Assembly (NCBI GenBank): GCA_017458125.1
Contig: JAFTGB010000042.1
Span: 1 to 64,000, forward strand
Source of the DNA: Prevotella sp.
Lineage (GTDB): Bacteria; Bacteroidota; Bacteroidia; Bacteroidales; Bacteroidaceae
DNA length: 64,000 nucleotides
Direction: 5' to 3'
Below the pieces are notes generated by a model. That model was not told the origin of the DNA, did not search any database, and worked only from the letters and a program-made list of their open reading frames with translations. Within the stretch, counting starts at the first letter, position 1. Each line of letters opens with the position of its first letter. Below are positions 3,931 to 46,946 of the stretch, in pieces. The position numbers were made by a program, and so were the translations under genes.

Positions 3931-5187
3931 TCACTCAAACTCTGCCTTCAGCACCTCCAAGACGTGGTCGACAGTCTCTTCTTCGAGGTCGGCCTTCTCG
4001 ATGAGCATCTCGCGCGGTGCGTTCAACACGGCCTTGGCGGTATCCAGGCCGATGGCCTTGATGGAGTCGATGATCCACTGGTCAATTTCGTCGGCAAACT
4101 CGTCGAGGTAGATGTCCTCGTCAGCCTCGTTCTCGTTGACCACACGGAAGACGTCGATAGTGTACTCGGTCAGCATAGAGGCCAGCTTGATGTTCAGTCC
4201 GCCCTTTCCGATTGCCAGGCTGACCTCCTCGGGCTGCAGGTAGACCTCGGCCTTGTGCTCCTCGGGGTTCAGGGTGATGCTGGTCACCTTGGCAGGCGAC
4301 AGGGCGCGCTGGATGAACAGCTGCGTATTGTTGGAGTAACTGATGACGTCGATGTTCTCGTTGCACATCTCACGGACGATGCCATGCACGCGGCTGCCCT
4401 TCACACCCACGCAGGCTCCCACGGGGTCGATGCGGTCGTCGTAGCTCTCGACGGCCACCTTGGCGCGCTCGCCAGGCATGCGTGCGATGCGGCGGATGGT
4501 GATGAGTCCGTCCTGGATTTCGGGCACCTCGGCCTCCAGGAGCCGCTCCAGGAACTTGTTGCTGGTGCGCGAGAGGATGATGCGCGGATTGTTGTTCTCG
4601 TTCTGCACCTCCTTGACGATGGCACGGACGGTCTCACCCTTGTGGTAGTTGTCGGCAGGTATCTGCTCCTGCTTCGGCAGGTGCAGCTCGTTGCCCTCGT
4701 CGTCGATGAGCAACACTTCGCGCTTCCACATCTGGTACACCTCGCCGGAGACTATCTGCCCCACCTTGTCCTTGTACTTCTGGTACAGCGAGTCGTGCTC
4801 CAGCTCCAGTATCTTCGATGCCAGCGTCTGACGCAGGTTCAGGATGGCACGGCGGCCAAACTTCTGGAAGTCGACCTCCTCAGACACTTCCTCGCCCACC
4901 TCGTAGTCGGGCTCTATCTTCTGAGCCTCGCTGAGGGCAATCTCCTTGTTCTCGTCCTTGACGTCGCCGTCGGCCACCACAATGCGGTTGCGGTGGATCT
5001 CGAAGTCGCCCTTGTCGGGGTTCACGATGACGTCGAAGTTCTCGTCCGAACCGAACATCTTGGCAATGACGTTACGGAAGCTCTCTTCGAGCACGCTCAC
5101 CAGGGTTGTTCGGTCAATGTTCTTTGTCTCTTTAAATTCCTGAAAGGTCTCTATCATAGAGGGGCCTTTCCCTTTCCTTGTTGCCAT
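3931..5187 (-). CDS. nusA: Transcription termination/antitermination protein NusA
   Basis: NusA binds RNA polymerase and nascent RNA and affects pausing, termination and antitermination. The 418-residue protein has the N-terminal polymerase-binding domain, an S1 domain (about residues 135-200; VGQIVSGEVYQM), and two KH domains (GACVGVKGSRVHGIV, and AIGKGGLNIKLAS). The C-terminal acidic repeats of enterobacterial NusA are lacking; only a short tail ending LEVLKAEFE is present, which is normal in this phylum. The rimP-nusA-infB order is the widely conserved one. The gap to infB (3802-3930) is filled with low-complexity words. Confidence 0.97.
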   Translation of the reverse strand: MATRKGKGPSMIETFQEFKETKNIDRTTLVSVLEESFRNVIAKMFGSDENFDVIVNPDKGDFEIHRNRIVVADGDVKDENKEIALSEAQKIEPDYEVGEEVSEEVDFQKFGRRAILNLRQTLASKILELEHDSLYQKYKDKVGQIVSGEVYQMWKREVLLIDDEGNELHLPKQEQIPADNYHKGETVRAIVKEVQNENNNPRIILSRTSNKFLERLLEAEVPEIQDGLITIRRIARMPGERAKVAVESYDDRIDPVGACVGVKGSRVHGIVREMCNENIDVISYSNNTQLFIQRALSPAKVTSITLNPEEHKAEVYLQPEEVSLAIGKGGLNIKLASMLTEYTIDVFRVVNENEADEDIYLDEFADEIDQWIIDSIKAIGLDTAKAVLNAPREMLIEKADLEEETVDHVLEVLKAEFE

Positions 5188-5272
5188 CTTTTTATTTTAC
5201 TATTTTACTATTTTCGATTTACGAATTTTCGATTTTCGATTTAATTCTTCACTCTTCACTTTTCACTCTTCA

Positions 5273-30494: not shown

Positions 30495-31718
30495 TTACCA
30501 CCACTTCGACTTGAAGTTGGCATTGGTAGCCCACTCCACGAATGTGGGATATTCCTTCTTTATGCTCTGACGCTCACCCAGCCACTTGTAGTTCTTGTCG
30601 ACAGCCAGCTTGCTGGTCGGCTCACCCTTCTGGGCGGTCAGCGTCTGCCACGCTCCGTTTTTGAACACCTCTATCTTGATGTTGTTAGCCTCGGCACCGT
30701 TGTTGATGGGAGAACCGTAGTCGAACACCACAGGGTCTTTCTCAGGACCGGCACCCGTGTTGACCATCTGGTTCTGACCAACGCCGAACAGCTGGTGTAC
30801 CTCCCATTCGTCCTTGCCGCCGATGCGCAGGGGCAGCGTACCGCCTGCAGCGTGCAGGATGAGCTGTGCGTTGCCGCCGAACTTGACGTCCAGCACGATG
30901 TCGTTGAAGTCGAAGTCGCCGTCCTCGGCAGCACTCAGGTCTTCGGCAATGATGCGGATGTTGCCCGTGGGCACAATCTTACCCGGCACAATCTTGATGA
31001 TGCGGTCGGTGTAGTAGCCGTCGGCATGGAACTCCGAGCCGTCGCTCTTGCCGTAGCTCTCGTAGTCGAAGCCTACATAGTAGCCCACCACGCCGTCCAC
31101 GGAGATGGCTCTCAGCACAAACTTCTGCGACGTGTAGTCGCCGTAGCTGTCATGGAAACTGAAAGCGTAGGTGCCGCTGTTCAGCAGGTGCTGAATCTGT
31201 CCGCTGTTGGCATTGAAGTTGTTGATGTGGTCCCACGTGCCGGCCTTGTTCGAGCACGAGATGTAGTCCATGTGTGCCGAGCCGTTCTCGCTGTGCGAGG
31301 TGCCGTTGTTGTCGTTCTTTCCGTCGGTCTCCGTGTTATAGGTGATGTTGGCGGCATAGACATTCTGCACAAAGAAGTCGCTGACGTCCAACGGCTCGCT
31401 CTGCGGATAACGGTTGCTGGCAAACCATGCCGATACGACATCCACCTCGCGCTGGGTGATAGCAGCGGGGATGACGTAGCCCTTCTGCTCCCACTCGTTG
31501 GAGTTCACGTCCACGGTACCACGCGTGGTCTCTGCGGTGATGTCTGCTGAGAAGCCCCAGTCCTGCGAGCTGGGAATGCTCTTACCTTCCAAATAGTTTC
31601 TGAAGGCCTGGTCGTACTTTTGCTTGTCTATCTCCTGCTGCGTCAGCGGGGTGACGTCGTTCTTCACACAGCCAACGAAAGCAAGTGCAGCAAAACTGAT
31701 TAACATTAGTTTCTTCAT
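30495..31718 (-). CDS. LruC-domain lipoprotein (DUF4842-like)
   Basis: A 407-residue lipoprotein (MKKLMLISFAALAFVGC, modified Cys near 17). A repeat of Gln/Lys/Asp-rich helices follows (LTQQEIDKQKYDQAFRNYL). The diagnostic acidic motif is DGDFDFNDIVLDVKF near residues 270-284, as in LruC/DUF4842 proteins, and the C-terminal region ends with Trp-rich WATNANFKSKWW. The function of the family is not established; surface location is plausible. First gene of a likely four-gene minus operon. It is related to the divergent gene at 31921. Confidence 0.82.
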   Translation of the reverse strand: MKKLMLISFAALAFVGCVKNDVTPLTQQEIDKQKYDQAFRNYLEGKSIPSSQDWGFSADITAETTRGTVDVNSNEWEQKGYVIPAAITQREVDVVSAWFASNRYPQSEPLDVSDFFVQNVYAANITYNTETDGKNDNNGTSHSENGSAHMDYISCSNKAGTWDHINNFNANSGQIQHLLNSGTYAFSFHDSYGDYTSQKFVLRAISVDGVVGYYVGFDYESYGKSDGSEFHADGYYTDRIIKIVPGKIVPTGNIRIIAEDLSAAEDGDFDFNDIVLDVKFGGNAQLILHAAGGTLPLRIGGKDEWEVHQLFGVGQNQMVNTGAGPEKDPVVFDYGSPINNGAEANNIKIEVFKNGAWQTLTAQKGEPTSKLAVDKNYKWLGERQSIKKEYPTFVEWATNANFKSKWW

Positions 31719-31920: not shown

Positions 31921-33207
31921 ATGATGAAACGCATCTTAACCATTACCCTCACGGTGGCGGCATGCCTCGTGCTCACCACGTCGTGCAGCAAGGACCTCTT
32001 CGACAAGAAGGCCTATGACGAATACGTCAGCTACCAGTTCATGATTGACAACGTGGACACCAACCACGACTGGTGCCTCACCAAGACAGGAACCACCGTA
32101 TTCACCGTGCCGGAGTCGGCCAACTACTACGGCATACAGGTGCTCACCGACAACCCCTACACCGTGGCAACGGCCGAGATTGCCGCCGAGGGTGCGTGCT
32201 CTGGCGGAAAGGTCAAGCTGACCTACACCGTGCCACTGACACACCAGACGCTCTATGCCGTCGTCGTCAACAGCAGCGGCGGAACACTCGGCGTAGTGCC
32301 CTTCAACTACGGTGCACCGTCCCTCGACATCAACAACGACAACCTGCAGCGCAACGGCATCTACCACCAGCCTGCCTACCAGACCTTCACCTACCTCTAC
32401 GAGACCACCTTCCCGCTGCCCGACGACTTCGACTACAACGACCTCGTGCTGCGCGTCACCAAGAGCTACACCGCCGACTCGCACCAGGTGGACCTGACGG
32501 TCACCGTCGTCGCCGCCGGCACGCTGCTGCCCTATGCCGCCGCCATCCAGCTGGCGGGTGTCAGGTACGACGACATCACCAGCGTAGAAATCGTGGAGGG
32601 CGAGCGCCTGGACAAGGACTACCCGTTCCCCCGCTCTTTCATCGAGAGCGACAAGACACTGGTGCGCGGGCGCAGCGGCGAGGCCGTCATCAGCCTCTTC
32701 GAGAACGTACACTGGGTACTCAACCGCAAGTTCGACGACTTAGGCAACATTCTGGCACTCAAGTACAACACGTCGCACGTCGACGTCGACAAGCTCAGCG
32801 GCACCGTGCCTGCCGTCAGCGCCACCTACCGCATCACCTGCAAGGACACCGAGACGGCACACAGCATCACCTTCGACCGCATTGACCCCTTCGTCGTCAA
32901 CCAGGCCAAGATGGAGAAGAGCATGAGCCTCGGCATCTGGGAGGTACACACCTACGCCTGTAAGTTCAACGGCGTACTGCGCGACGTCTTCAAGGACCGG
33001 TCGGCCTACGACAACCACATCAGCTGGGCACTCGCCATTCCCAAGCCCGACTTCCGCTATCCGTTGGAGGGCATCGCCCTGTGTACCTACAACAACGAGA
33101 CGGGCGAGACCTTCGGACCCTACGCCGGCTATGCCAGCTGGATGCAGAACCACAACGCCTACCATAACTGGTTCCAGACGGAAACCGTGCCCGACCTGCT
33201 GTATTGA
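31921..33207 (+). CDS. LruC-domain lipoprotein, divergent relative of the 30495 gene
   Basis: A 428-residue lipoprotein (lipobox VLTTSC near residue 22; ATG at 31921 or 31924). The acidic family motif is DDFDYNDLVLRVTKSY (about 172-187), placed in the middle instead of towards the C-terminus. The rest is beta-rich, with many Tyr/Asn/His residues near the end (WMQNHNAYHNWFQ). The upstream gap has a TTTG and TAATTTTA at 31881-31892, a weak promoter candidate. It ends 9 bases before the convergent peptide gene at 33217. Function not known. Confidence 0.8.
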   Translation: MMKRILTITLTVAACLVLTTSCSKDLFDKKAYDEYVSYQFMIDNVDTNHDWCLTKTGTTVFTVPESANYYGIQVLTDNPYTVATAEIAAEGACSGGKVKLTYTVPLTHQTLYAVVVNSSGGTLGVVPFNYGAPSLDINNDNLQRNGIYHQPAYQTFTYLYETTFPLPDDFDYNDLVLRVTKSYTADSHQVDLTVTVVAAGTLLPYAAAIQLAGVRYDDITSVEIVEGERLDKDYPFPRSFIESDKTLVRGRSGEAVISLFENVHWVLNRKFDDLGNILALKYNTSHVDVDKLSGTVPAVSATYRITCKDTETAHSITFDRIDPFVVNQAKMEKSMSLGIWEVHTYACKFNGVLRDVFKDRSAYDNHISWALAIPKPDFRYPLEGIALCTYNNETGETFGPYAGYASWMQNHNAYHNWFQTETVPDLLY

Positions 33208-33216
33208 GAGCTTTTT

Positions 33217-33399
33217 TTATTCAAATTCGTTGAATTGGGTTTCGCGGGCAGTGCCAGGAGGAGGAAATGGGTCAGGGTCACCACCGCCTGGTTCGATATC
33301 TGGAACCGTTACAGTAACTCCAGACGACCCAGCCAACAGCTGCATATCGTCAACACTCAGCTCCTCCAAATGGGGGGGGGTATAAATTGCCTTTTTCAT
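33217..33399 (-). CDS. Small leader-like peptide, copy 1 (in frame, 9-C tract)
   Basis: A 60-residue protein beginning MKKAIYTPPHLEELSVDDM, then QLLAGSSGV near residues 20-28, and a tail rich in Pro, Gly, Asp and Glu. The first part is almost identical to that of copy 2 (33611-33774), but the tails differ. The N-terminal part resembles short leaders ending in a small-residue cleavage site (AGS); this is an inference. The codons for TPP lie on a run of nine C (plus strand G at 33372-33380). A promoter identical to that of copy 2 lies upstream. No transport or modification gene is next to it. Confidence 0.65.
   Translation of the reverse strand: MKKAIYTPPHLEELSVDDMQLLAGSSGVTVTVPDIEPGGGDPDPFPPPGTARETQFNEFE
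33372..33380 (-). repeat. Homopolymer tract (9 C on the coding strand)
   Basis: Nine C in the coding strand, codons 7-10 of peptide copy 1. This length keeps the ATG at 33397-33399 in frame with the rest of the gene. Confidence 0.9.
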
Positions 33400-33431
33400 T
33401 TTTGTTTGTTATTTGTTAGTTTTATTTTCGT

Positions 33432-33464
33432 GCAAAGTTAGTCAATAATCAGTAAACGAACAAA
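33432..33464 (-). promoter_or_regulatory. Promoter of peptide copy 1
   Basis: Minus strand TAACTTTGC (33432-33440) and TTTG (33461-33464) with a 20-base gap. The same arrangement lies before copy 2. Confidence 0.7.
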
Positions 33465-33515
33465 TAATTAAACATTTTTAGTGAGCGTTTAAAAATAACC
33501 TGGTATGATTTTGAC

Positions 33516-33590
33516 TGAACACAAAGACACAAAGACACAAAGTTTTTCTTGGCACTGCGACCAGCTCAACTCTTTGTGTCTTTGTGTTCA
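33516..33590. repeat. Inverted repeat of ACACAAAG words
   Basis: The left arm TGAACACAAAGACACAAAG starts at 33516 and continues with one more ACACAAAG; the right arm (33572-33590) is its exact inverse. The gap between the arms is about 30 bases. It separates the two peptide genes. Confidence 0.8.
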
Positions 33591-33610
33591 AAATTTCAGC
33601 AGAACACTTA

Positions 33611-33774
33611 TCAATCCCCGTCCCTATCCCTGTCATCTTCAATAGGGTCATCGTCACCTTCGCCTGGTTCGTAACCGCCAGCTGTTCCTGAAACTCCTGA
33701 CGACCCAGCTAACAGCTTCATATCATCTACTTTCAGCTCCTCCAAATGGGGGGGGTATAAATTGCCTTTTTCAT
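33611..33774 (-). pseudogene. Small leader-like peptide, copy 2 (out of frame, 8-C tract)
   Basis: Same promoter, same leader and same start (ATG AAA AAG GCA ATT TAT) as copy 1, but the C tract has eight C (plus strand G at 33748-33755). From the ATG at 33772-33774 translation gives MKKAIYTPPIWRS and stops. In the next frame the expected product continues: PPHLEELKVDDM, KLLAGSSGV, and an acidic Gly/Asp tail ending DRDRDGD at 33611. One added or two lost C would restore it. It may be a switched-off phase-variable gene, a recent pseudogene or a sequencing error. Confidence 0.65.
33748..33755 (-). repeat. Homopolymer tract (8 C on the coding strand)
   Basis: Eight C where copy 1 has nine; puts the conserved ATG out of frame. 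Confidence 0.9.
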
Positions 33775-33806
33775 TTTTGTTTGTTATTAGTTCGTTTAAT
33801 TTTCGT

Positions 33807-33839
33807 GCAAAGTTAGTCAATAATCAGTAAACTGACAAA
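33807..33839 (-). promoter_or_regulatory. Promoter of peptide copy 2
   Basis: Minus strand TAACTTTGC (33807-33815) and TTTG (33836-33839), spacing 20. The longest open frame of copy 2 runs through this promoter and begins at a TTG there, so that start is unlikely. Confidence 0.7.
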
Positions 33840-33939
33840 TAATAATTCAGGTTTTTCAAAAATCCGTCAGAAGCATGATGGTGGAAATTCTGATGCTCAT
33901 CAGCAAAATTCTGACCATTAGAATTTTCCTGCTGAACGT

Positions 33940-34056
33940 AGTAACTATTAGTTACTGCCTCGCGCGCGTATTATAATATAGTGAATAAATTTTTTACCCC
34001 ACACCCGCGACACCCGCCGCACCTGGATTGGGTGTGGCGGGTGTCGCGGGTGTGGG
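33940..34056. repeat. Hairpin-rich intergenic stretch after the Dna2-like gene
   Basis: AGTAACT-ATT-AGTTACT lies at about 33940-33956. A long GC-rich stem follows: 33998-34018 pairs perfectly (21 bp) with 34036-34056, itself built of ACACCCGC words. T-runs stand on both outer sides (TTTTTT before, ATTTTTT after), so it could end transcripts from either side. No coding sequence is recognised in 33840-34119. Confidence 0.7.
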
Positions 34057-34119: not shown

Positions 34120-37100
34120 TTATTCCTTGTACTGACGGATAAGCTCGGCAAAGACGGGGTTGCGGCTGAGGACGCTGACGTTGCCCGTCATGAGCAGCTG
34201 GCAGCGGGCACGCGTCATGGCCACGTTCAGCTTACGGTCGATGACGCGTCCGTCCTCCACAATGCAGTTGCTGGTCAGGAAGTCTAACTGGTAGGGGTTG
34301 CGCACGGTGAACGAATAGATGATGACGTCGCGCTGCGACCCCTGATAGCGCTCCACGGTGTCGATGCTGACGGCGTGGAGCTGTGGCAGGTTCAGCAGTG
34401 CTATCTCGCGACGTATCATGGCTATCTGGTTGCGATAGGGCACAATGACACCCACCGTGCGGTCGGCGTCGAATTTTGCTCCGTACTGTCGCACGATGCG
34501 GCGCAGCAGGTCGGCGACGATGCGCGCCTCTGCGGCATTCGACTTGTCGGCAAAGGTGTCGCTGTCCGGCGTGTCGGCCGGCAGGAAGAGCACGCGCCGC
34601 TGCTTCAGCAGGTCGTCCATCGCATCCTCCGACGGTGCCTCATAGTGCAGCGTCGTCTCCTCCTGGTGCGGACAAGGCACGCACTCCAAGCGTTCGCGCC
34701 CGTAGAACATCATGTTGGGAAATGCGGCAATGTCGGGGTGCATGCGCCCCTGACGGCGCAGGATGGCGGTGAAGTCAGTGCGCCCGGCCTCGCGCTCCTG
34801 TCGCAACAGGCGTTCAAACAGCGAGTAGCGGCAGGCGTGCAGGCGCGGCACGTCGTCGGGCTGTTGCACGACGGCGGGCAACTGCTTGTGGTCGCCTATG
34901 AGGATGAATCGGTCAACGGCGTCAGACGACAGCAGACCGATGATGCTTGGCTCCAAGATTTGCGACGCCTCGTCGACCACGCACAGTGCGAAGTGCTTGA
35001 GTTGCAGCAGGAAGGGGCGCGACTGCAGCGTCGACGTGGTGCCCACCACTACGCGCACGGCCTGCAGCTGTTGCTGCATGAGCGTCAGTCGCGGCCGCTC
35101 GCCCATGCGGCGGTCTAACAGGTGACTGACGAAACGCGGGTCGCACGCCGTCTCGCTGCCTAAGCGCAGGAAGTCGATGCCCGCGTCGCAGAGCATGGCA
35201 CATATCTCGTCGACGGCACGATTGGTATAGGCCGTCAGCAGCACGCTGCCCGTCTCCTCCTGCACGATGAAGCGCAGGGCCATCGATGTCTTGCCCGTGC
35301 CCGGCGGCCCTTGCAGCAGGAAGTAGTCACGGGCCTGGAAGGCCTGCTCCAGAATGGCATCGTAGTGCGGGTGGTAGCTGCGCGTCAGGCGGCGGTCAGG
35401 CTGTCGGCGCGGCGCACGCAGTCCCAACAGCAGCTGGCGACGCTCGGCGCGGGCCGTGCAGAAGGCGTGTATGGCACGTATGGCCGACGTCGCTCCGATG
35501 TCGGACGTGCCGTGCTCTATGGCGTAGGTGCCGTCGCCGAAGACCGCGGCATTCTGCTGCGCGTCGTTCAGTCGCACCGTCACTTCACGGTCGGTGAGCT
35601 GCTGGATGACCCCCTTATATAATATATGTACGCGCGCGTCCGGTTCGCCGTCGTAGCGGTAGACGTAAACCATGTCGCCGCGCCGGAAGTTCGGCAGGAA
35701 GTCGTCGCCCTGTTCCGGGATGCTGAACAGCAGCAGGTCGTAGCCGCTGCCCACGGCCGACTGTCGGCGGTCGGTGAGCGTCAGCGCCATGAGGATATTG
35801 CCCGTGCTACACTTCTCCGTCAGCGGCATCGTCCAGAGGTCGGCCTGTGCCCCACCCTGCCCTTCCTGCACGCCCACCTTCTGCGCCAACTGTTCGCGGT
35901 AGACGAAGGTGAGCATGCGCTCGGCATAGTCGCGCTCCGTGGGCGACAGCTGGCGGAACACGCTGAAGACAGCCTCCACGTCGGGCCTGACATAGCGGTC
36001 GAAGAAGGTCGCCTTGTCGGCATTCTGCAATAGCGTGTCGGCCTGCAGCAGGGGTATGACGGTGGCAAAGCCGTCGCGTGCAATGGCCATCTCCTGTGCC
36101 ACGATGCGGTTGCGCAGGCTGATAGCCTCGCGAAACAGCTGCTGGTAGTAGCTGACGACGAGCAGTCCCTGCCGTGCGGGGTACTTAGAGTAGAGCAGGC
36201 GTATGTCGACGCGGTCGGCCGACAGGTGGAAGTTATGGCGCAGCACGCCGTAGTAGAGCAGCAACTGCACGTAGTGGTCTTCGCGCTGCAAGCCCTTGCT
36301 GCCGGGCTGCGGGTGCTCAATGTTCCAGTTCTTGCCCGCCTTCTGCTCCACCAGCAGGCGCATGTCGGTGGTCATCAGGTCGACGCGGCCCTGCAGTCCC
36401 AACTGTTCGCAGACGAAGGACGGCTCCAAGAGTGCCTTAGTGCGGTCGTAGTCGGTGGTGAACAGCTGGCTGACGGCCTCGCGGATGTGGTCAGCCTGCT
36501 GGCGGGCATCAGCCTTGAAGCGCTGGCCGTCGAAGGCCGGACAGGTGCAGAACTGTAGCGCCTGCATGCGGAAATTGTCGCTGATGGTGTCGCCTAAGGT
36601 GCGGTCTGGCTGGTTGATGGTGTCGTCGAGCACGTCGCCCGCTAAGTTACCCAACAGGATGGGCTGCGTGTTAGCCCGTGGCTTCATGCGCTGCAGCAGG
36701 TAGCTCAGCGGGTGGTGGCCATAGTCCTGGAAGCAGGCGGCAATGGCCGAGATGTCAACCAAGTAGTCCGGCTCCACGACGACGAGGCCCGCCTCAATGG
36801 CCGCCCCCTCGCGGTGGCAGTCCAACAGGTTAAGCTGCATGCCGGGGCGCAGCAGGGCGGGCAGGGTGTCATCCGTCACGGGGAACGTGACGGGACCGTC
36901 AGCCGTGGTGGCCATGATGTGGCGGTCGTCCCAGCTGTCGACGACGCAGCGTATATGGCGCAGGTTGATGCGGGTGCTCTCCTTGGCCTTCGGCTGTGCG
37001 GGGATGCGCACTAAGAGGCTGTGAGGTATGGAGGCATGGAAGATAGCGGCGACGAAACGGCTCAGTGCGCGAATGTCGTAGAGCCAGTCGTCCTTGGCGG

Positions 37101-37344
37101 GCACCTCGCTACGGTTGCTGTGACGGCGCATCAGCTGTATGGCCGTGCGTTCGCCGACGGGGACGTGGTGGCGCTTACAGAGGTAGTCGACCTGCGAGAA
37201 CAAGTTGCCGAAGCCCTGTCCGCTGCCGCGCAACGCCTCAGCACAAGCCAGCACCAAGGTCTCGTGCATATAGCGCACGGCCTGTGCCGAGGGTTCGGCA
37301 CAGGCCAGTTCGATGCATCGTTCGTATAGCTCGTCGACGCTCAT
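34120..37344 (-). CDS. Dna2-like nuclease-helicase (superfamily 1)
   Basis: A 1074-residue protein combining a PD-(D/E)XK-type nuclease half and an Upf1/Dna2-type SF1 helicase half. The nuclease signature is GRVDLM followed by LLVEQKAGK (about 322-342), with a CTC pair upstream (LQFCTCPAF). Helicase motifs are LLQGPPGTGKTSMA (I, near 681), VVDEASQ (II, near 790), GDHKQLPAVV (III), VGVIVPYRNQ (IV), DTVERYQGSQRD (V) and NVAMTRARCQLLM (VI). Such enzymes act on replication or repair intermediates; a role in defence has also been seen for relatives, but no defence partner is present here. It begins 3 bases after the DUF3108 gene. The 3' end is followed by a hairpin stretch. Confidence 0.88.
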   Translation of the reverse strand: MSVDELYERCIELACAEPSAQAVRYMHETLVLACAEALRGSGQGFGNLFSQVDYLCKRHHVPVGERTAIQLMRRHSNRSEVPAKDDWLYDIRALSRFVAAIFHASIPHSLLVRIPAQPKAKESTRINLRHIRCVVDSWDDRHIMATTADGPVTFPVTDDTLPALLRPGMQLNLLDCHREGAAIEAGLVVVEPDYLVDISAIAACFQDYGHHPLSYLLQRMKPRANTQPILLGNLAGDVLDDTINQPDRTLGDTISDNFRMQALQFCTCPAFDGQRFKADARQQADHIREAVSQLFTTDYDRTKALLEPSFVCEQLGLQGRVDLMTTDMRLLVEQKAGKNWNIEHPQPGSKGLQREDHYVQLLLYYGVLRHNFHLSADRVDIRLLYSKYPARQGLLVVSYYQQLFREAISLRNRIVAQEMAIARDGFATVIPLLQADTLLQNADKATFFDRYVRPDVEAVFSVFRQLSPTERDYAERMLTFVYREQLAQKVGVQEGQGGAQADLWTMPLTEKCSTGNILMALTLTDRRQSAVGSGYDLLLFSIPEQGDDFLPNFRRGDMVYVYRYDGEPDARVHILYKGVIQQLTDREVTVRLNDAQQNAAVFGDGTYAIEHGTSDIGATSAIRAIHAFCTARAERRQLLLGLRAPRRQPDRRLTRSYHPHYDAILEQAFQARDYFLLQGPPGTGKTSMALRFIVQEETGSVLLTAYTNRAVDEICAMLCDAGIDFLRLGSETACDPRFVSHLLDRRMGERPRLTLMQQQLQAVRVVVGTTSTLQSRPFLLQLKHFALCVVDEASQILEPSIIGLLSSDAVDRFILIGDHKQLPAVVQQPDDVPRLHACRYSLFERLLRQEREAGRTDFTAILRRQGRMHPDIAAFPNMMFYGRERLECVPCPHQEETTLHYEAPSEDAMDDLLKQRRVLFLPADTPDSDTFADKSNAAEARIVADLLRRIVRQYGAKFDADRTVGVIVPYRNQIAMIRREIALLNLPQLHAVSIDTVERYQGSQRDVIIYSFTVRNPYQLDFLTSNCIVEDGRVIDRKLNVAMTRARCQLLMTGNVSVLSRNPVFAELIRQYKE

Positions 37345-44291: not shown

Positions 44292-46946
44292 TTATCGGCC
44301 GCTGACTATCTTCTTAATCTCGTTGAGCTTGTTGAGGGCTTCCAACGGCGTCAGGTTATTGACGTCAAGGCCGAGTATCTCGTCGCGCACTTGACAGAGC
44401 ACGGGGTCATCCAACTGGAAGAAAGAGAGTTGCATGCCCTCGCGGCTTTGGGCTATCTCTGCCGTAGGCTTGCCCACCGTACCCACCTGCGCATTGTCAC
44501 TCTCCAACTGTTTAAGGATGACGTTGGCACGCTTGACAATGCTCTTGGGCATACCGGCTATTTCGGCCACATGGATACCGAAGGAGTGCTCACTGCCGCC
44601 ACGCTCCAGCTTGCGCAGGAAGATGACTTTGCCGTCAACCTCCTTCACCGAGACGTTATAGTTCTTGATGCGCTTGAAGTTCTTCTCCATCTCGTTCAAC
44701 TCATGGTAGTGGGTGGCGAAGAGCGTGCGGGCACGGGCTTTGGGCTGCTCGTGCAAGTATTCGACGATAGCCCAGGCTATGGAAATGCCATCGTATGTTG
44801 ATGTGCCACGCCCCAACTCGTCGAAGAGTACCAACGAGCGTGGCGTTACGTTATTCAGGATATTGGAAGCCTCGGTCATCTCCACCATGAACGTTGACTC
44901 ACCTAACGAGATGTTGTCTGACGCTCCCACACGAGTGAAAATCTTGTCAACCAAACCTATGTGTGCGCTCTCTGCAGGCACAAAGGAACCTATCTGCGCC
45001 AACAGAACTATCAGGGCCGTCTGGCGAAGCAGGGCGGACTTACCGGCCATATTGGGACCGGTGATGATGATAATCTGCTGGCGATCCTGGTCGAGCAGGA
45101 TGTCGTTAGGCACGTAATGCTCACCTATGGGCAACTGTGTCTCGATGACAGGATGGCGACCCTGGCGGATATCAATGATGTCTTGCGACGAAACCACCGG
45201 GCGCACGTAATGCAGTTCCTCTGCGGTCTTGGCAGCGCTAAGCAAACAGTCGAGGTTGGCAATGGCATTGGCGTTCTGCTGTATCTGAGGGATGAACGCC
45301 TGAGCGGCCACCACCAGCTCACTGAAGAGCCGCTGTTCTAAAGAGAGTATGCGGTCCTCGGCACCTAATATCTTTTCTTCGTACTCCTTCAACTCCTGCG
45401 TAATGTAACGCTCGGCTTGTGCTAACGTCTGCTTGCGCACCCACTCCTGCGGCACTTTGTCCTTATAAGTGTTGCGTACTTCAAGATAGTAGCCGAAGAC
45501 ATTGTTGTAGCCTATCTTCAGCGAGGCTATGCCTGTCTGACGAGCCTCGCGCTCCTGGATCTGCAACAGGTAGTCTTTACCCGAATAAGCGATATGGCGC
45601 AGGTCGTCGAGTTCGGCATTGACACCATCACGGATGACACCACCCTTCTGCACCAGTTGGGGCGGGTCGTTCTGTATTTCGCGTGCTATGCGGTCACGGA
45701 GCTCTTCGCAAAGAGAAAGGCGCTCCCCTACCCTGCGGAGCGACTCGTTGACGGTGCCTGACGCCTCTCCGTCAGTCACTGAGGCTTCATGGCAGGCAGC
45801 CTTGATGGGGGCGATGGCTTGCAGGGCGACCTTCAGCTGTACCATCTCACGAGGACTGACGCGACCGGTGGCCACTTTGGACACGATACGCTCCAAGTCG
45901 CCTATGCTATGCAGGTGGTCGTCAATACACTGGCGGAAATCGGGTTCACGGAAAAAGTAGTCAACGATGTCCAAACGCTGGTTGATGGGTTTCTCGTCTT
46001 TGAGGGGAAACACCAGCCAACGGCGCAGCAGTCGGCCACCCATCGGACTGACAGTGCGGTCGATGACGTCAAGCAACGACTTGCCATCCTCCTGCATGGT
46101 GCTGACAAGTTCCAAAGAGCGGACAGTGAACTTGTCCAAGCGTACGTAACGCTCCTCCTCGATGCGCGACAGCGATGTGATGTGAGCTATCTGCGTATGG
46201 AGCGTCTGCTCCAAGTATTGCAGGATGGCACCGGCAGCCACTACCCCACTCTTCAGGTGGTCGACACCGAAACCTTTGAGCGACTTGACATTGAAGTGCT
46301 TGTAGAGTTTCTGGTGGGCGGTCTGTTCGGTAAATACCCAGTCGTCCATCTCGAACGTCACGAGTCGGGAGCCGAAGTAGCGCTCGAAGTCTTTGCGGCA
46401 GTCACGGTTGTAGAGCACTTCCTTAGGTTGGAAGTTGCCAATGAGCTTTTCCACATAGTCGTAGGTACCTTCGCCAGTCAGGAACTCACCGGTCGAAATG
46501 TCAAGAAAAGCCACACCACAAACGGCTTTTCCAAAGTGCACCGCACAAAGAAAGTTGTTCTCTTTGTAATTGAGCACCGTGTCCTGCATGGCCACACCAG
46601 GCGTAACCAGCTCTGTAATGCCGCGCTTGACGAGCTTCTTGGTCAGCTTGGGGTCCTCCAACTGGTCACAGATGGCCACACGTTTGCCGGCACGGATGAG
46701 TTTGGGGAGATAGGTGTCAAGGGCATGGTGCGGAAAACCGGCCATCTCGTCGCCTTTCACCCCCGCCCCATTGTTGCGGTGTGTCAGGGTAATTCCTAAT
46801 ATCTGGGCTGCTATGACGGCATCGTCGCAGTATGTTTCGTAAAAGTCACCACACCGAAACAGCAATAAAGCCTCTGGGTGTTTTGCCTTGAGGTCAAAAA
46901 ACTGCTTCATCATGGGGGTTAGCTCCTTACCCTCTTTCTTTACCAT
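44292..46946 (-). CDS. mutS: DNA mismatch repair protein MutS
   Basis: MutS recognises mismatches and starts repair with MutL. The 884-residue protein begins with the mismatch-binding part ([19 protein letters not shown] with the Phe-x-Glu type motif), the connector, core and clamp domains, then the ATPase ([17 protein letters not shown], Walker [26 protein letters not shown]). The short helix-turn-helix end is present. The ATG at 46944-46946 is chosen; the longer frame would start in the promoter. Confidence 0.97.

Follow-up and report, generated by a model that had tools for sequence, protein, structure and literature searches.

Do the two small paralogues that stand in tandem on the minus strand of this Prevotella sp. 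contig form a switch, or has one of them lost its reading frame by accident? The question arises from the whole stretch of 64,000 nt that was analysed (hereafter the window), where the first-pass annotation had seen two small genes with nine and eight C and had taken them for a phase-variable pair. The features concerned are the following.

33217..33399, minus strand: copy 1, the whole 60-aa gene MKKAIYTPPHLEELSVDDMQLLAGSSGV... (open reading frame translation and family model)
33372..33380, minus strand: C9 tract of copy 1, in frame, codons 7-10 (Thr-Pro-Pro-His)
33433..33440, minus strand: -7 box TAACTTTG of copy 1, with TTTG at 33461-33464
33220..33480, minus strand: duplication unit of copy 1, promoter and gene
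33733..33774, minus strand: copy 2 as read from the ATG at 33774, 13 aa MKKAIYTPPIWRS, then a stop
33748..33755, minus strand: C8 tract of copy 2, the family frame behind it being out of phase with the ATG
33611..33757, minus strand: open frame of copy 2 past the tract, 48 codons and a stop
33808..33815, minus strand: -7 box TAACTTTG of copy 2, with TTTG at 33836-33839, spaced as in copy 1
33611..33860, minus strand: duplication unit of copy 2

Tract and frame readings bear out the annotation on the two tract lengths, on the read-through of copy 1 and the early stop of copy 2 (60 aa versus 13 aa), and on the common promoter, equal spacing and identical start. Translated from the ATG at 33399, copy 1 gives MKKAIYTPPHLEEL...NEFE (60 aa), the nine C supplying the codons for Thr-Pro-Pro and the first base of the His codon; seen on the plus strand, the tracts are a G9 at 33372-33380 and a G8 at 33748-33755. 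From the ATG through the LEEL codons, one C is the sole difference between the copies. Behind its tract, the frame of copy 2 runs to a stop at 33611-33613 and shows 66% identity with copy 1 along a stretch of 41 aa. In the codon listing for that frame, ATG, GTG and TTG are all absent between the promoter box and the tract. A TTG at 33820 was rejected as a start, since it lies upstream of the -7 box and hence outside the likely transcript.

At this locus a free-standing small gene has been duplicated in tandem, with a promoter-like sequence before each copy. In both, the first base of TAACTTTG lies 41 nt ahead of the ATG and TTTG starts 24 nt upstream of that base (hand count); the former we take to be a Bacteroidota-type -7 box and the latter a possible -33 element. 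Upstream of the ATG the copies match at 70 of 80 positions, and the units share repeat blocks of 107 nt (91% identity) and 134 nt (75%), the near-identical 5′ parts lying about 376 bp apart. Between the copies there is an inverted repeat, TGAACACAAAGACACAAAGA / TCTTTGTGTCTTTGTGTTCA (window 33516-33590). Elsewhere in the window, LruC-domain (TIGR04456) neighbours were found at 30498-31718 (minus strand; weak, under the cut-off) and at 31921-33204 (plus strand; over the cut-off, also matching DUF4842), and no RNA family reached its gathering score. Copy 1 had no match in a defence library, and a phage origin was discarded, there being no match among phages.

The pair falls within a multicopy Prevotella family, whose predicted proteins measure roughly 45-80 aa and have the pattern MKKxYxxP...LLAGS or LCxS followed by an acidic tail. 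This Y..P/LLAGS family is defined here, from an alignment (A3) of 15 proteins that includes copy 1 and leaves out copy 2, and in which four residues, Y, P, G and S, are invariant. Both copies carry the four residues and match the model, the frame of copy 2 doing so at E 4e-9 although the model was built without it, and the C tract sits on the codons for the conserved proline. The genome itself holds 22 matches at E <= 10 and 13 at E <= 0.001, the pair included; beyond the pair there are 20 (a few of them weak or partial) and 11, respectively. Within the genus, the model finds matches at E <= 0.001 in at least 313 of 398 genomes, own included, among the best candidates (up to 15) of each genome. 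Profile libraries named neither copy, TIGR03893 and PF16934 remaining below their cut-offs; among six family relatives that were scanned, none had an NCBIfam match or a Pfam match above the cut-off, and one had two weak, implausible Pfam matches. The family is likewise absent from the listed titles and abstract openings in the literature searched for the pair or the family. Whether or not it switches, the pair points to a large family of small proteins that Pfam and NCBIfam leave unnamed in the scanned members.

This family shows a strong gene-order rule. Forty-five of the 60 members away from contig edges (12 of 20 in the genome itself), which are not independent because the two members at one locus (L076) share an upstream gene and some others come from related loci, follow on the same strand, at -4 to 242 nt, a gene encoding a protein with a YDLQGRRVxxPxKGLYIVNGKKVIVK-like tail at its C-terminus (general form YDLxGRRVxxPxKGLYIxNGKKVxVK). 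A stricter pattern gave 35; it was widened after the misses had been read, and the wide form was applied to the control. An example from the own-genome loci (L201-L218) is:

L201, 5160-6419: tail gene; 4975-5232: frame of the small gene

The control, made up of the window and 80 loci carrying a helicase relative, had 8 tail-ended genes among 725, three of them with a same-strand next gene of at least 100 aa within 400 nt; since larger next genes are counted there, the comparison is not quite like for like and its Fisher P of 2e-56 is overstated. The excess of tail genes upstream of family members is very large. Conversely, one of the eight control tail genes, that of L076, precedes family members: at 1125 and 1286 (minus strand) of this locus stands a second tandem pair, behind the tail gene and without C tracts. 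The type IX sorting-signal profile PF18962 (Por_Secre_tail) had five matches at E <= 1 in the genome, none of which coincided with the 12 own tail genes (by coordinates), and it matched none of five tails scanned alone; SprA (PF14349) had no match in the genome, nor in any control genome, which makes this result uninformative. As for the pair, its nearest same-strand upstream gene is helicase-like (34120-37344) and not a tail gene. The copies are therefore an exception to the rule, and a role as partners of an adjacent tail gene was rejected. Between the promoter of copy 2 and the helicase gene, at 33998-34056, lies an inverted repeat of 26 nt, rich in GC and with a loop of 7 nt, which may be a terminator or else belong to a dispersed repeat.

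If the tract served as a switch throughout the family, it should recur in other members. It does not: in the first 75 nt of 62 distinct members, mostly the best-scoring ones from the loci at hand and not a random sample, C/G runs are of five or fewer in 60, and runs of eight or nine occur in the pair only. The tract is thus no family device, and we discard it as a family trait. Orthologues that could have displayed another tract length were not found either. The search gave none in 397 congeners, where the best match beyond the own genome has E 1.7e-4, and none in the genome_contigs or viral_contigs collections. Among the best 80 loci with a helicase relative, identity does not exceed 73% and L076 is the only one to carry family members, so that the nearest relatives among the sequences searched are too distant for a comparison of tracts. 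The nucleotide pattern ATGAR...TAYACCCCCC occurs in 18 of 398 genomes, own included. Eight of the 17 hits elsewhere were inspected; two (L134, L149) are in reversed orientation and were left unjudged, and in a third (L135, MKKSFYTPPE, C8) the family frame was not found by eye behind the tract. The idea of a phase-variable pair accordingly keeps its structural part, a frame-breaking homopolymer near the start with a family frame behind it, but gains nothing from orthologues of other length or from a family-wide tract.

How unusual are the tracts themselves? A G8 is matched three times in the window, twice inside the G9 run, and this count is by itself unremarkable, since shuffled windows have a mean of 1.15 and reach three or more in 14 of 100 cases. 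The picture differs for the whole 3.37-Mb assembly, which has nine C/G 8-mer matches in eight places versus about 60 places expected (a rough figure, extrapolated from the 1.15 per 64 kb of the shuffled windows). C/G runs of eight or more are thus rare in this genome; the pair accounts for two of the eight, and no run except the tract of copy 1 reaches nine. With the codon frequencies of 21 window genes, the probability of ACC CCC CCC given Thr-Pro-Pro is 0.11. Four of the other six places lie in frame inside long open reading frames (L128, L129, L130 and L133). One of these, a G8 at L128:1501-1508 (G000:C7:32085-32092), falls where a TonB-receptor-like gene encodes its signal peptide and is another candidate for slippage. 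The sixth place (L132) is near a contig end and without a clear long gene; judged by eye from translations, the inverted-repeat element found between the two copies is suggested near this tract as well. At the fifth, the reading frame of a methylase gene (L131/L217) is broken, and a G8 at L217:3464-3471 (G000:C61:114463-114470) stands between two Methylase_S domains. The frame at 262-3471 of L217 (G000:C61) encodes N6_Mtase together with the first Methylase_S domain and stops just past the G8, the second Methylase_S domain following in another frame. This break may reflect another error or else another switch. Taken together, two of eight runs in one pair and the methylase break look like use of tracts more than accident.

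The intact and conserved downstream frame of copy 2 had been offered as the usual sign of on/off switching. The frame is indeed open and family-like (E 4e-9), but the sign is weaker than it appears. Over the 19 leader codons after the tract the copies differ by four synonymous and three non-synonymous changes (pS 0.30, pN 0.07, Fisher P 0.04), five of the seven changes being at third positions, and over the next 15 codons, the tail, pN is 0.34. Were all seven changes neutral, two or fewer amino-acid changes and no stop would be expected with P 0.037 (0.035 in a first run). If only copy 2 were free, P would be 0.66 with three of the changes on its side and 0.37 with four, and 6.7% of base shuffles have 48 open codons. 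The conservation of the leader is therefore compatible with copy 2 never having been under constraint, and the frameshift may be as old as the duplication.

We favour, with a confidence that falls just short of an even chance, the view that a real but incidental slippage frameshift silences copy 2, rather than a maintained switch. We infer that both copies are transcribed and that the indel is a genuine slippage event. Slippage by a single base in the C tract over the conserved proline would have set the two copies out of phase with each other; as sequenced, copy 1 would make a protein and copy 2 a 13-aa stub, and the frameshift would amount to an incidental loss within a redundant family. Reversion by slippage would be possible in principle, slowed by MutS, whose gene is intact with all five Pfam domains (window 44295-46946, minus strand) and which should restrain slippage. 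We count for this view the intact MutS, the lack of a family-wide tract, the codon-use probability of 0.11 and the many relatives in the genome, and against it the rarity of runs of eight or more, the presence of two of them in the pair and of a third at the methylase frame break. The same observations are what speaks for an evolved slipped-strand contingency pair, in which both C tracts would be retained for their slippage and the cells of a clone would differ in whether they make none, one or both of two proteins that share a leader but not a tail; this we regard as possible but on the whole doubtful. It would account for the only nine-run of the assembly, and two of its eight long C/G runs, falling in one pair, for the position of the tract near the 5′ end of the gene, and for tails that diverged (pN 0.34, versus 0.07 in the leader) while promoter and start were kept. 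Moreover, 8-9 C is at or above the cut-off of 7 and the switching length of eight repeats given for Campylobacter in the excerpted text of PMC6321876, and the G8 of the same genome stands at a frame break between specificity domains as in NgoAV (excerpts of PMC9577141). Against such a pair stand the 60 other family members without the tract, the lack of an orthologue in the 397 congeners, genome_contigs and viral_contigs, the intact MutS and the likely origin of the tract in codon use (0.11); each tract has one length in one assembled genome, a second state being unseen. Tracts of variable length would make this a case of slipped-strand switching in Prevotella; in the excerpted part of a phase-variation review, DNA inversion is named for Bacteroides and a homopolymer switch is not named for that phylum.

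Alternatively, the missing base may not exist in the organism. The C8 could stem from a mistake in the consensus or the assembly, or from a mixture of strains collapsed in a metagenome assembly, since the genome is metagenome-like (86 contigs, 88% complete), near-identical 5′ parts at a distance of about 376 bp may be mis-resolved, and the methylase break at another G8 could share the cause. We hold this to be unlikely: the copies can be told apart by differences outside the 5′ part, the C/G 8-mers in four other long open reading frames are in frame, and 40 chosen window frames are by eye without an obvious break, the last two points arguing mildly against poor base calling. Copy 2 might also be expressed despite its broken frame, if transcription slipped or ribosomes shifted frame on the C8, a view to which the family frame open behind the tract lends itself. 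Copy 1, however, needs no recoding, and the duplicated unit thus probably did not evolve around it; we consider this explanation quite improbable. Very improbable indeed, in our estimation, is that members of the family serve as dedicated partners for exported proteins with the common tail, the two copies being a free-standing, slippage-switched version that acts in trans; if so, altering a C tract by one base would change the partner made, and hence the set of surface proteins of individual cells.

Some of these systems resemble the pair and others its relatives or the methylase gene. The pair recalls type 2 lantibiotic leaders (TIGR03893, PF16934) in that LEELSVDDMQLLAGS weakly resembles a leader of the double-glycine type, but it stays below both curated cut-offs (21.6 versus 32.95 bits for TIGR03893; 17.5 versus 27.6 for PF16934), and a C39 peptidase, for which the control was positive in 8 of 14 genomes, had no match in this 88%-complete genome; a double-glycine leader and export by this route were therefore rejected. 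Type IX secretion offers a parallel to most family loci and not to the pair. In the excerpted text of PMC10202324, PF18962 is the type A sorting signal and genes with type B C-terminal domains (CTD) cluster with PorP/SprF partners, an order in which a gene with a sorting-like tail is followed by a second gene, as here. The family differs in that its second gene encodes a product of 45-80 aa and its tails lack PF18962, the pair having no tail gene at all. The phase-variable poly-G/C genes of Campylobacter, for which the excerpts of PMC6321876 give a tract cut-off of 7 or more (PhasomeIt) and report eight-repeat tracts as switching, are like the pair in having a coding G/C run of 8-9, a frame-breaking indel and an open frame behind it. 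They are unlike it in that they have many tracts with demonstrated length variation, whereas here there are eight runs and a MutS in one assembled genome. Finally, the poly-G tract that ends hsdS1 of NgoAV, described as phase-variable in the excerpted text of PMC9577141, resembles the G8 of the methylase gene and not the pair: in both, the tract lies between specificity domains and the first frame ends there, the difference being that the methylase and the first specificity domain are here joined in one protein.
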